DNA of 45,817 nucleotides from Planctomycetota bacterium (lineage in GTDB: Bacteria; Planctomycetota; Phycisphaerae; WQYP01), in contig JAJZDN010000028.1 in NCBI GenBank assembly GCA_021805985.1, forward strand, positions 1-45,817. Reading direction: 5' to 3'. A model generated the notes under the pieces. It searched no databases, was not told where the DNA came from, and saw nothing but the letters and a program-made list of their open reading frames with translations. Numbering within the stretch: the first letter of the stretch is position 1; each line of letters begins with the position of its first letter. Positions 6,614 to 44,852 of the stretch are shown piece by piece. The translations under genes and the position numbers were made by a program.

Positions 6614-6674
6614 AAGCCGCGGGCCCGAAAGAGATCGGGGCATGGTGCAGGTTTCGCATTTCCGATTAACGCCT

Positions 6675-7038
6675 GGGAGCCTGTCCGAGTAATGGCCGGG
6701 TTGCGACAACGTGATTTTTGGCTGGTCGGGACATCGTCGCGTCGTAGAGCACCGTGGTGATAAGCCGGTGGTTGGTTGGCAACACTGGATCAACCACCGG
6801 ATTAACCATCCGGTGCTCTACAAGAAACGGCGACGATGGCGTACCTGACACGGACGGTTCAGCCGCGCCGCGGGGGGAGGCCAAAAAGCACGCCGCCCTA
6901 CGGGTGGGCCTGAAATGCCCCGCCTGCTTTGTTGTCGGATCTCGCAGACTCATCATTAAGAGTCGGCTCGATCCTCCGTCGCGCATACGGGACATTTCAG
7001 ACCCATCGCAATCCCGGCCATTGCTCGGACAGGCTCCC
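6675..7038. mobile_element. 364-bp MITE-like element with ~32-bp terminal inverted repeats and nested hairpins
   Basis: The left end (6675-6706, beginning GGGAGCCTGTCCGAG) is the inverse of the right end (7006-7038) apart from one substitution and one extra base. Inside is a stepped hairpin: 6732-6740 with 6830-6838 (9 bp), 6744-6753 with 6812-6821 (10 bp, GTAGAGCACC) and 6765-6774 with 6791-6800 (10 bp, CCGGTGGTTG). A second arm pairs 6906-6921 with 6989-7004, allowing G-U and mismatches. There is no coding capacity. A related 53-bp copy lies at 43163-43215. I saw no clear target-site duplication, so mobility is inferred from the structure; a structured RNA or REP-type intergenic element is the alternative. 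Confidence 0.7.
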
Positions 7039-7080
7039 GTTCTCGGGGGGCTGTGCAAAAACTGCGGCATGCAAAGCCGA

Positions 7081-8220
7081 TTACTTTGCGGCAGGAGGTT
7101 TGGCAGCAGGGATTTGTTGACGGTTGATCGAAAGGGCGGATATTTTTTCTGTCAGGCGGGATTTGGGGACATCGGACATATCGCTAATCCAGCGGATGGA
7201 TTCGTAGTGCAAAGCAAGGGCGGTTGTCAGGAGCGGGTTGCGTTTGGATTTGCTGGTGCCGACAAAAATGGTGTATTCCAAATGCCGATGCGTGAGTTGA
7301 TGCGTGACGGATTCCGTCAGGCGTTTTAACTTGATGTTCAGCCCGGTGAGGTTAAAGAGTTGCTGACTGGCCGCTGCGGCGTTGCGGCGGGAAAGTTCAA
7401 ACGCGGGAAATTCCCAGAGATGTTCCCAAAGGCCGCCGGCCTTGCGTTGCGCCAGCAGTTGGCCCTGCGGCGAATTAATGACGACTGCGGCCATTTCGAT
7501 GTGGGGCGTGGGGGCTTTGCGTTGTTTTACCGGTAATTGGTTCTGCATGTTGCGTTGCCGGGCCATGCAAAAACTTTTCAGCGGGCAACTTTCGCAGCGC
7601 GGATGCTTTGGCGTGCAAACGGTGGCTCCCAGTTCCATCATGGCCTGATTAAAATCTCCCGGGTTGGTCTGGGGCACCAGCGCTTCGGCAATTTGCCATA
7701 GCCGCTTTTGCGTTTGCGACGTGGCAATATTGTCGCGAATCAGCAGGAGCCGCGCCAGCACGCGCATCACGTTGCCATCCAGTACCGGCACTGTTTCATG
7801 GAAGGCGATACTGGCGATGGCACCGGCGGTGTACCGGCCGATGCCGGGAAGTTTCAACATATTATCATATGTGGATGGAAAAATACCGTGATATGTTGAT
7901 GCGATTATCTGAGCGGCCTGGTGCATACTTTTGGCGCGCCGGTAATAACCCAGGCCCGCCCAGATTTTCAATATTTCGTCCAGAGGCGCGGCAGCCAAGG
8001 CATGTATATCAGGAAATTGTTGTAAAAAGCGGGCGTAATAAGGTGTGACCGTGGCAACCTGCGTCTGTTGGAGCATCACTTCGGAGAGCCAAACGGCATA
8101 AGGATCGTGGGTATTTCGCCAGAGCATGGGACGTTTGTGCTGGTCAAACCACGTGCCCAGGCGTTGGTGAATGTGCTTCTGCAGGGCGGCTGGAATGCGG
8201 TCGAAACGTGTGGATTTCAT
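7081..8220 (-). CDS. mutY: A/G-specific adenine DNA glycosylase MutY
   Basis: A 379-residue base-excision repair enzyme that removes adenine mispaired with 8-oxoguanine. Visible features: catalytic E47 in WLSEVMLQQTQV, helix-hairpin-helix LPGIGRYTAGA (about 124-134), catalytic D148 in PVLDGNVMRVLAR, and the [4Fe-4S] loop C202-x6-C209-x2-C212-x5-C218. The C-terminal ~150 residues correspond to the NUDIX-like 8-oxoG recognition domain. The start at 8220 fits family N-termini; the frame extends to a GTG at 8310 that would add 30 unrelated residues and overlap a DnaA-box-like site. No strong Shine-Dalgarno is visible at either. It is transcribed away from dcd. Confidence 0.95.
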   Translation of the reverse strand: MKSTRFDRIPAALQKHIHQRLGTWFDQHKRPMLWRNTHDPYAVWLSEVMLQQTQVATVTPYYARFLQQFPDIHALAAAPLDEILKIWAGLGYYRRAKSMHQAAQIIASTYHGIFPSTYDNMLKLPGIGRYTAGAIASIAFHETVPVLDGNVMRVLARLLLIRDNIATSQTQKRLWQIAEALVPQTNPGDFNQAMMELGATVCTPKHPRCESCPLKSFCMARQRNMQNQLPVKQRKAPTPHIEMAAVVINSPQGQLLAQRKAGGLWEHLWEFPAFELSRRNAAAASQQLFNLTGLNIKLKRLTESVTHQLTHRHLEYTIFVGTSKSKRNPLLTTALALHYESIRWISDMSDVPKSRLTEKISALSINRQQIPAAKPPAAK

Positions 8221-8302
8221 TGTAAGAATTCTATCCGCACGGCAATAATGAGCAACGGCGTCTGACGGGGCGATAATTTTTGCATTCCGGGCAAGATTGG
8301 AG

Positions 8303-8399
8303 TTATCCACAGGGGCTTTTTGGTGACTACAACATCTGGTAGAAAAAAAAACTAATTAACACAAGTCTTGTGGATATAATGGGTTAGTGATGTGGAAAA
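8303..8399. promoter_or_regulatory. cluster of three DnaA-box-like sites
   Basis: TTATCCACA (8303-8311, plus strand) is the perfect consensus DnaA box. TGTGGATAT (8369-8377) and TGTGGAAAA (8391-8399) are minus-strand boxes ATATCCACA and TTTTCCACA, each a known type of near-match. The last two are spaced 22 bp start to start, about two helical turns. The setting, upstream of dcd and nrdJ and next to an AT-rich block, suits either a DnaA-controlled nucleotide-supply promoter or a replication origin. Confidence 0.55.
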
Positions 8400-42259: not shown

Positions 42260-42443
42260 AATACATCAGAATACCGGCGATTCACCGCTCCGGCCAGTCT
42301 GCCGCAAAGCGAAGGCGGCACGGATAGTGAATGATTAAATATTCGATAAGTTTGTGTTAATCCTGTTATTGAGGCTTGATGGGTGGTGTCGCGGCGCGGA
42401 ATGTGAGGTAAAATGATCGCGTGTGACGGGCAAATGGAGTTTT

Positions 42444-43154
42444 ATGGCGCGGAAGAAAAAAATACTGGTTGTGGATGATGAGCGCGATCTTGTCGATCTG
42501 ATCGGCATGAATCTGCTGCGACAGGGTTATGAGGCCGTGACCGCCCATGACGGAAAAATCGGGTTGGAGATGGCCCGTAAAGTGGCACCGGATTTAATTC
42601 TTCTGGATCTTATGATGCCCGGTCTGACCGGGCAGGAAGTCGCAACGCGCCTCAAGGGTGATCCGCAAACCGCCAACATCCCGGTGCTGATGCTCACGGC
42701 ACGCGGCGAAGAAACCGACATTATCGTCGGGCTTTCCTTAGGGGCGGATGATTACGTCACGAAACCATTTTCCATGAAAGTCCTGATGGCCCGTATTGCG
42801 GCTGTGCTACGCAGGAAAGCCGCCACTGCGGAAGCCGGGCAGCAGATTCTCAGCAACGGCCCGATGGTTATTGATGAAGCCCGGCATGAAGTCACGCTGG
42901 AAGGCCGCCCCGTCACGGTGACCCCTACCGAATTTAAATTGTTGACCGCTCTGGCGTTGGCCCGCGGGCGGGTGCTGTCGCGGGATCAGTTGACGGACCG
43001 TGTCATGGGATCGGAAGTGTATGTTACGGATCGGGCCATTGATGTGCATGTCACGGCAGTTCGTAAAAAATTGGGCGATTACCAATGGATGATCCACACG
43101 GTTCGCGGTGTAGGCTATAAACTTCTGGAAACCAAGGAAGAAGCGGGCATCTGA
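42444..43154 (+). CDS. OmpR/PhoB-family response regulator
   Basis: A 236-residue two-component regulator. The receiver domain shows the acidic pair D11-D12 (VVDDE), phosphoacceptor D55 (LLDLMMPG), T85 and K107 (VTKPF). The C-terminal winged helix (about 135-232) has VTPTEFKLL, RVLSRDQLTDRV and VHVTAVRKKLG, GVGYKL, typical of PhoB-type DNA-binding domains. GGAG (42436-42439) four bases before the ATG marks the start; a GTG at 42423 is less likely. Its partner is the kinase 246 bp downstream. DNA-binding motifs resemble PhoB, so phosphate control is possible, but no Pho box was recognised. Confidence 0.92.
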   Translation: MARKKKILVVDDERDLVDLIGMNLLRQGYEAVTAHDGKIGLEMARKVAPDLILLDLMMPGLTGQEVATRLKGDPQTANIPVLMLTARGEETDIIVGLSLGADDYVTKPFSMKVLMARIAAVLRRKAATAEAGQQILSNGPMVIDEARHEVTLEGRPVTVTPTEFKLLTALALARGRVLSRDQLTDRVMGSEVYVTDRAIDVHVTAVRKKLGDYQWMIHTVRGVGYKLLETKEEAGI

Positions 43155-43162
43155 GCTTCTCA

Positions 43163-43215
43163 CCAGGAGCCTCTCCGAGTAATGGCCGGGTTGCAATCTC
43201 GGACAGACTCCCTGG
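43163..43215. repeat. short copy of the 6.7-kb inverted-repeat family (REP-like hairpin)
   Basis: Positions 43166-43196 repeat, with two mismatches, the left terminal repeat found at 6676-6705. Directly after it comes the inverse of its first half (43198-43214), so the whole folds as an imperfect hairpin whose outer bases CCAGG/CCTGG also pair. It begins nine bases after the response-regulator stop and may shape the transcript end. It lacks the 300-bp interior of the long form. Confidence 0.7.
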
Positions 43216-43400: not shown

Positions 43401-44852
43401 ATGATAAACGGTTTTAACATGCTTGCACCTGCGATCCTTGCGGTTTTCCGCGTGCCCGGTACGCATTCAACCCAGGCTGCGGTATTAGCCGTCCTTGTGG
43501 CGATATTCGCGGCCACGTCAGTGGCATTGTTGCTGGTGCTCATTCAACGGTATCGCATGGTCAAAGACATTATCCGCTGGCTGCGGATACGGCGGATGGG
43601 GGAGCCAGAGCGTGCGCCAATTGTTCTGGCCCACGCGCAACTGGAACGGTTGGTACGCGAAATTCAAAGTCTTGCCAATGCCTCGGAGCTTGAACGCCGT
43701 GAACTGCGCGTGCAAAGCAGCTATTTGCAAACACTTCTGGCCTGCCTCAATGACCCGGTGATTATTCTTGACCCCGCCGGCGTCCCCGTGCTTTCGAATC
43801 GTCGGGCGGTGGAGTTGTTGATTGCTCCGGCTGATGCCGATTCTCAAAATAGTTTACGTGAATTTGCGGCGCAGGCGGCCGTGCAGGATATTACCCGCAT
43901 TGCCTTGCGCAGTCAGACGCCGATTTCGCGGCAGGTCCGTCTTCCGGTTTTTTCACGCCCCCGTGTTTTGCAGATAACCGCTGCGCCTATTTCACCGGGG
44001 CTTCAGCCGGGCGGTATTTTGCTGTTGTTACAGGACCAAACCGAATTACTGCAGAACGTCCAGATTAAAGCCGACTTCGCCGCCAACGCCAGCCATGAAC
44101 TTCGCACACCTCTGGCCAGCATTCGGGCGGCGGTTGAAACCATCAATGAAGCCGGATATGAAGATCATGTCACGCTTAAGCGGTGTCTGGATATCGTGGG
44201 TGGTCATGTGCTGCGATTACAGCTTCTCGTGCAGGACCTCCTGGATCTATCGCGCACGGAAGACCCCCGGGCGGTGGTCCGTTATGAGCCGATCAACCTT
44301 GAGGAAGTGCGCGAATTGATTTCCAGCCTGTTCAAAAACATGGCGACCGAAAAACATCTGGACTTACGCTTTGAAATCGCTCCTGACGCACAGGCCATGC
44401 ACGGAGATGAACGCCTGGTATTGCTGATCCTGAAAAATCTTATTGATAACAGCTTGAAATTCACCGCCGCCGGATTTATACAGGTCCGCTGGCGCAAGCA
44501 AACCCGACCCGTGCGTAACGCCAATAAATCCGATTCCTCTGATAGCAGCGGCACAGAAGATATCATGATTCTCGAAGTGGAAGATACCGGCTGCGGCATT
44601 CCGCCGGAAGATATTAACCGCGTCTTTGAAAGATTTTATACCGTTAATCGCAGCCGGGGCGGCGCGGATCGTGGTACCGGTCTGGGGCTGGCCATTGTGA
44701 AACATGCGGTAGCAGCCATGGGCGGCGTGGTTGAACTACACAGCCAAACCGGAAAAGGTACCATCATGCGGTGCATTTGGCCGCAATCCCGCCAACCTAT
44801 CCCGCCGCGCCGCCCACCGGTTGAACTCACCTCCGCGTCGGGCGCCGATTAA
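43401..44852 (+). CDS. PhoR-like sensor histidine kinase
   Basis: A 483-residue kinase partnering the upstream regulator. One N-terminal membrane helix (about 26-48), then a PAS-like segment (about 107-215, NDPVIILDPAGVPVLSNRRA), the H-box ASHELRTPLAS with H232, the N-box LIDNSLKFT, G1 DTGCGIPPED and G2 DRGTGLGLAIVKH. Only one membrane segment is seen, so it lacks the periplasmic sensor loop of classical kinases; sensing would occur in the membrane or cytoplasm, as in PhoR. It ends with a Pro-rich tail. The 246-bp gap after the regulator contains the REP-like repeat. Confidence 0.9.
   Translation: MINGFNMLAPAILAVFRVPGTHSTQAAVLAVLVAIFAATSVALLLVLIQRYRMVKDIIRWLRIRRMGEPERAPIVLAHAQLERLVREIQSLANASELERRELRVQSSYLQTLLACLNDPVIILDPAGVPVLSNRRAVELLIAPADADSQNSLREFAAQAAVQDITRIALRSQTPISRQVRLPVFSRPRVLQITAAPISPGLQPGGILLLLQDQTELLQNVQIKADFAANASHELRTPLASIRAAVETINEAGYEDHVTLKRCLDIVGGHVLRLQLLVQDLLDLSRTEDPRAVVRYEPINLEEVRELISSLFKNMATEKHLDLRFEIAPDAQAMHGDERLVLLILKNLIDNSLKFTAAGFIQVRWRKQTRPVRNANKSDSSDSSGTEDIMILEVEDTGCGIPPEDINRVFERFYTVNRSRGGADRGTGLGLAIVKHAVAAMGGVVELHSQTGKGTIMRCIWPQSRQPIPPRRPPVELTSASGAD

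Follow-up and report, generated by a model that had tools for sequence, protein, structure and literature searches.

A gene-less repeat family of uncultured Planctomycetota with a modular, folding interior and IS1182-type ends is probably a MITE

Several kinds of short repeated element with terminal inverted repeats (TIRs) are known from bacteria. NEMIS, Nezha, RUP and ERIC are short TIR elements that lack coding capacity and fold strongly (PMC3733652), and the REPIN/RAYT and TIRYT systems comprise high-copy palindromic repeats, occurring also as dimers and clusters, with GTAG REPs and TIR-flanked tyrosine transposases known from Planctomycetes and other phyla (PMC3733652). A minisatellite of 23-nt repeats lies inside BrickBuilt, a Porphyromonas gingivalis MITE (PMC4596501). 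IS1272 of Staphylococcus belongs to the IS1182 family, some members of which target palindromes, and was reported in 2017 to replace a target inverted repeat without target duplication (PMC5678879).

The element analysed here lies in a 45,817-nt stretch of DNA (the window) from a Planctomycetota bacterium. It resembles NEMIS, Nezha, RUP and ERIC but, going by their descriptions, differs from them in reaching 379 bp, in being multi-branched and modular and in carrying DNA-level compensatory changes inside. Like BrickBuilt, it is a gene-less inverted-repeat element with tandem repeat units inside; in contrast to BrickBuilt, the units are hairpins of ~90 bp that are missing in some forms, and the host phylum and the termini differ. 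We estimate a probability of about 0.88 that the element belongs to a gene-less MITE family with IS1182-type ends, most likely moved by an IS1182-type partner. The original prediction, made from the letters of the window, had offered a MITE, a REPIN-like element or a large structured RNA for positions 6675-7038, and only the first of these was borne out.

The predicted inverted repeats and inner stems were present, and comparison with other copies refined the bounds to a 362-bp core reading GGAGCC...GGCTCC, the edges of which are TIRs of ~33 bp each (Table 1). Inverted repeats of 26 nt at 6675-6700 and 7013-7038 are 96% complementary, and inner arms of 31 nt at 6744-6774 and 6791-6821 are 81% complementary. 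The statement that nearly the whole element can fold was upheld, as a 391-nt stretch gave a predicted fold of -215.6 kcal/mol against -152 +/- 6.4 for dinucleotide shuffles (z -10.0; none of 100 as good), with nearly all of the 362 bp paired. That there is no ORF held in substance, although on the minus strand an ATG frame of 134 aa runs across the element; since six other copies of ~370 bp have 1-5 stops per frame in all six frames, this frame is not a gene. The element adjoins a mutY-like gene (7081-8310, minus strand), with the next gene on its other side. The related short copy announced 36 kb away was recovered as a 46-bp form whose neighbours are a response regulator gene (42423-43154) on one side and a histidine kinase gene (43401-44852) on the other.

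Table 1. Positions of the element, its parts and its short relative in the window
Feature	Position	Strand	Basis or remark
MITE core, 362-bp form (left arm, hairpin cassette, folded module, right arm)	6676..7037		Own-genome copies, empty loci
Left TIR arm	6676..6708	+	Opening 19 bp match one end of the IS1182-type IS exactly
Right TIR arm	7005..7037	-	Inverted repeat, fold, IS comparison
Left flanking dinucleotide TG	6674..6675		Family consensus TA/CA
Right flanking dinucleotide CG	7038..7039		Family consensus TA/TG; non-consensus in this copy
Inner hairpin cassette, unit of ~90-bp tandem hairpin repeat	6735..6821	+	Absent from 278-bp form
3' half of arm 1 and small GC hairpin	6822..6904	+	Common to 278-bp form; alignment, fold
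Arm 2, long branched hairpin GGGCCTGAAATGCC...GGGACATTTCAGACCC	6905..7004	+	Fold
Short TIR-TIR form, 46 bp, same MITE family	43166..43211	+	97% identical to left TIR

A BLAST search of the element's own genome (G000; 4.68 Mb in 197 contigs) returned 94 match pieces, and some 82 places carry the element or its TIR, weaker sites included, far beyond the two copies of the window, with almost none for a reversed control pattern. An 18-bp TIR word at no more than one mismatch was found at 38+43 = 81 sites in the same genome, and its reversed control at 0. The family exists in several size forms, namely TIR-only palindromes of 41-54 bp, to which the 43.2-kb copy belongs, and forms of ~190-240, 278 and 362-379 bp. 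Seven own-genome copies represent the ~370-bp form, that of the window and six at 90-93% identity to it; many others lack query positions 54-152 (the 278-bp form), and still others consist of one arm only with one to four hairpin cassettes.

All seven congeners searched matched at least part of the element, one of them (G004) with the hairpin cassette only and with no TIR at up to one mismatch. Copies were also found in several other genera of the same taxonomic family, and none in sixteen genomes of other taxonomic families. TIR sites were most numerous, among the genomes counted, in a member of another genus (G019), at up to 126+107 = 233; many of these lie where contigs stop, which is what assembly breaks at near-identical copies would produce. 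The named records in which the TIR occurs were Planctomycetota and Phycisphaerales metagenome assemblies; the TIR word occurred in three viral contigs, and plasmids gave no match.

Some features of the copies and their surroundings recur. Tandem dimers with one base between two elements were seen at L095, L111, L261, L264, L277 and L282, those of L095 and L111 reading ...GGCTCC-T-GAATCC... and its reverse, which suggests repeated insertion beside, or joint movement of, two copies. Runs such as AACTCCTAACTTCTAACTCC stand beside several copies (flanks of L009, L012, L025 and others) and are themselves repeated through the genomes. L014 (G000:C195) and L032 (G023:C126) are 100% identical over 3225 bp in genomes assigned to different genera, so that one contig is probably mis-binned or, failing that, was very recently transferred.

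The joined flanks of copies were matched against relatives, the comparison being between species and not strains, and uninterrupted sites could be aligned for about ten loci (L003, L005, L010, L012, L065, L046, L195, L186, L035 and L048); those found for L110 and L168 were paralogous. At the locus of the window itself the insertion is missing from two congeners, G006 and G003, in which mutY (86-87%) and the start of the next gene (72%) align with no TIR present. The best filled/empty pairs, with flanks 96-100% identical (in the best of them, 201 bp at 100% in the joined query), displayed a gain of 2 bp at a TA target. The L046 locus reads ...CTCATA-element-TGGGCATT when filled and ...CTCATAGGCATT when empty in G003, so that filling has added the core and a further 2 bp at TA, and the empty target of L195 reads CTA in three genomes. 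These filled/empty comparisons at species level could partly reflect loss. At the empty sites of the MITE, insertion adds 2 bp at TA and replaces no stem-loop. In this, as in its lack of a gene, the MITE differs from IS1272, for which inverted-repeat replacement is reported; such replacement does not define the whole IS1182 family.

Of 86 copies, 57 had flanks of the form YA...TR, followed outwards by C and G (C-Y-A...T-R-G). The left/right dinucleotides of the 86 copies included 26 TA/TA, 16 TA/TG and 13 CA/TA; since they are often unequal, the case for a clean duplication comes from few good empty sites. A model without target duplication, in which the element itself carries A...T, had been prompted by the TA/TG and CA/TA flanks and was rejected, since the empty sites of L046 and L195 show a TA target. 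When the 172 ends of the 86 delimited copies were examined, the outer base of the junction was often found changed on one or both sides, mostly where C precedes, and CA was in excess in that context (40 of 101 ends against 4 of 36 otherwise, p 0.0016, in a test that treats related ends as independent). A later change of CTAGG to CCAGG, of the kind expected from very-short-patch-like repair, would fit this excess.

A transposase sharing the termini, for which the original prediction had envisaged a RAYT-type or other enzyme, was found with an IS1182-type insertion sequence and not among the RAYT genes examined. Three of the DDE_Tnp_1 genes searched lie between TIRs of the MITE family: L295 (G006:C311) is a 1726-bp IS with an intact 477-aa transposase frame and a terminus identical to that of the MITE over 18-19 bp, L299 in the own genome (C55) is a copy of that IS, 96% identical, in which two stops interrupt the frame, and L293 (G005) is an IS shortened to 1105 bp. 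All three copies have the flanks CTA...TAG. The partner protein contains DUF772 and DDE_Tnp_1 domains and scores 347.2 bits against NF033551, the NCBIfam model for IS1182 (cut-off 270), and by this match it is a predicted IS1182-family transposase, in which respect the system agrees with IS1272. The MITE and the IS have 17-19 terminal bases in common and nothing convincing inside; as the likeness is essentially limited to the termini, the MITE did not arise from this IS by simple deletion. In G019, the genome with most MITEs, the DDE_Tnp_1 and DDE_3 matches included no IS with these TIRs, although collapsed repeats in short-read assemblies could hide one.

TIR pairs 1.0-2.6 kb apart at C126, C42 and G019:C88 were considered as autonomous candidates and set aside, no transposase being recognised inside them (at C126 and C42 as assessed from reading frames only). 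At L093 540-1524 (G019:C88), 985 bp with two near-perfect TIRs and TA on both sides contain a cupin gene (147 aa), possibly as a cargo-carrying relative or as two solo TIRs around a gene. In G000:C55 (L119 / L299), an IS630-type element directly abuts the end of the IS1182-type element with a common flanking CTAG, and this pair of neighbours recurs in G024:C74 (L329).

A short non-coding element with common TIRs, a 2-bp target gain, dispersed copies together with empty sites, and an autonomous element with the same TIRs thus has, as far as comparison of genomes indicates, the properties of a MITE. The kind is well known and the family new, its modular and fully folding interior being what is notable. 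The IS1182-type transposase would act in trans on the MITE TIRs and join the MITE to TA targets. Recognition probably does not depend on the interior, which for that reason is modular, and one of its modules appears to have arisen by capture of a hairpin unit of the ~90-bp tandem repeat.

No host function is necessary to explain the element. It may nonetheless be a MITE by origin that the host now uses, for instance to terminate transcription or stabilise mRNA downstream of mutY and in the gap separating the regulator and kinase genes. The position between the mutY-like gene and the next gene, the very strong hairpins and the folding of the family on both strands are in keeping with such use, and host effects have been described for other bacterial MITEs (PMC3733652). 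However, the window locus is without the insertion in the two congeners and the family behaves as a mobile repeat, and we regard host use as unlikely; it is compatible with a MITE moved by an IS1182-type transposase and not opposed to it.

The interior was analysed through the 278-bp form, the predicted fold of which has, on either strand, a TIR stem, a pair of long arms and one small hairpin. In an alignment of 52 copies, 93.4% of the pair cells were standard, and the TIR helix was 96% paired. Compensatory (double) changes occurred at 21 pairs, against 7.0 +/- 1.9 when shuffled and 6-12 when slid, a shuffle that is not a strict test since the copies are related; besides the TIR stem, the inner helices 3, 8 and 9 contained such changes. 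Further copies, covariation and empty sites, the joint lack of which the original prediction had named as speaking against it, were in this way all found. Across the 52 copies there were 82 G-U cells and 96 A-C cells (p 0.33), and with the two equally common the interior pairing seems to be kept at the DNA level and not as a one-strand RNA. The balance of G-U to A-C differs between the arms (53 to 34 in arm 1, 10 to 36 in arm 2), which leaves room for a weaker strand preference per arm. Imperfect palindromes can be corrected by template switching during replication. The pairing observed here would be kept either by such correction or because transposition selects for a DNA fold.

The cassette of the long form corresponds to a single unit of a ~90-bp hairpin repeat. 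This repeat also exists without these TIRs, and the own genome has arrays of three or four units of it. In G004, which has no TIR site at up to one mismatch, an array comprises seven such units, and this array is an independent hairpin minisatellite. Imperfect hairpins of ~90 bp in tandem arrays, of the type GAGCACCG...CGGTGCTC, were noted at L055 1098-1707 (G004:C145) and also at L025, L028 and L070.

It could also be envisaged that the multi-branched interior is selected as a single-stranded or cruciform DNA fold used by the IS1182-type transposase or by replication, the MITE being a structure-dependent parasite and not just two TIRs with filler between them. We consider this quite improbable; if true, the modular forms would result from the IS1182-type transposase swapping interiors between palindromes.

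A large structured non-coding RNA, such as a regulatory RNA or riboswitch conserved for its function, would account for the very stable fold and for the excess of compensatory pairs given above. A one-strand RNA should favour G-U, however, and G-U cells did not exceed A-C cells; moreover, the window has no Rfam match at gathering scores, and the copies lie at unrelated loci, are missing from orthologous sites and vary in their modules. An RNA function is thus highly unlikely to be what maintains the element.

A REPIN-like element moved by a RAYT (Y1_Tnp, IS200/IS605-type) transposase is similarly hard to sustain. The element shares with REPIN/RAYT and TIRYT systems its high-copy palindromic repeats, dimers and clusters, as well as a phylum from which such systems are reported; its TIR-TIR palindromes of 41-54 bp look like REPINs, and Y1_Tnp genes were present in five of the six genomes searched. 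In contrast to those systems, the MITE is not tied to the RAYT genes examined: its TIR was found, at up to four mismatches within the stretch scanned, at 3 of 27 Y1_Tnp loci, none of which was bounded as a unit. In L132 the TIRs face outward, in L136 a solo TIR lies ~900 bp away from the Y1_Tnp gene, and both loci have other palindromes beside that gene (for example CCCCCGGCAAGCCGGGGGCTAA in L132). At about 1380-1426 of L138 (G006:C118), a truncated MITE copy appears to interrupt a RAYT-type gene. It is, instead, a DDE-type IS that carries the MITE ends, and insertion adds two bases at TA.

Finally, a MITE of an IS630 (Tc1/mariner) element, suggested by the TA target, the presence of IS630-type DDE_3 genes and the IS630 directly beside a MITE TIR in L119, can be put aside as extremely improbable, since the two IS630 copies with readable ends begin CTAGTGTAGCGTCCC or CTAGTGTTGTGTCCC and not GGAGCCTGTCCGAG, and no DDE_3 gene in fifteen genomes was bounded by the MITE TIR (GGAGCCTGTCCGAGTAAT).

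We found no earlier description of this family in the open-access literature. A MITE with IS1182-type ends, as favoured here, would add to the uncultured Planctomycetota a high-copy family, with up to 233 terminal-repeat sites per genome, together with its likely source of transposase. It would also offer a natural case in which elements with IS1182-type ends enter TA sites and add 2 bp, in contrast to the inverted-repeat replacement reported for IS1272. The family carries a warning as well, in that a repeat is not shown to be an RNA by compensatory changes alone, and a count of G-U against A-C cells helps to separate pairing kept in DNA from pairing kept in RNA.
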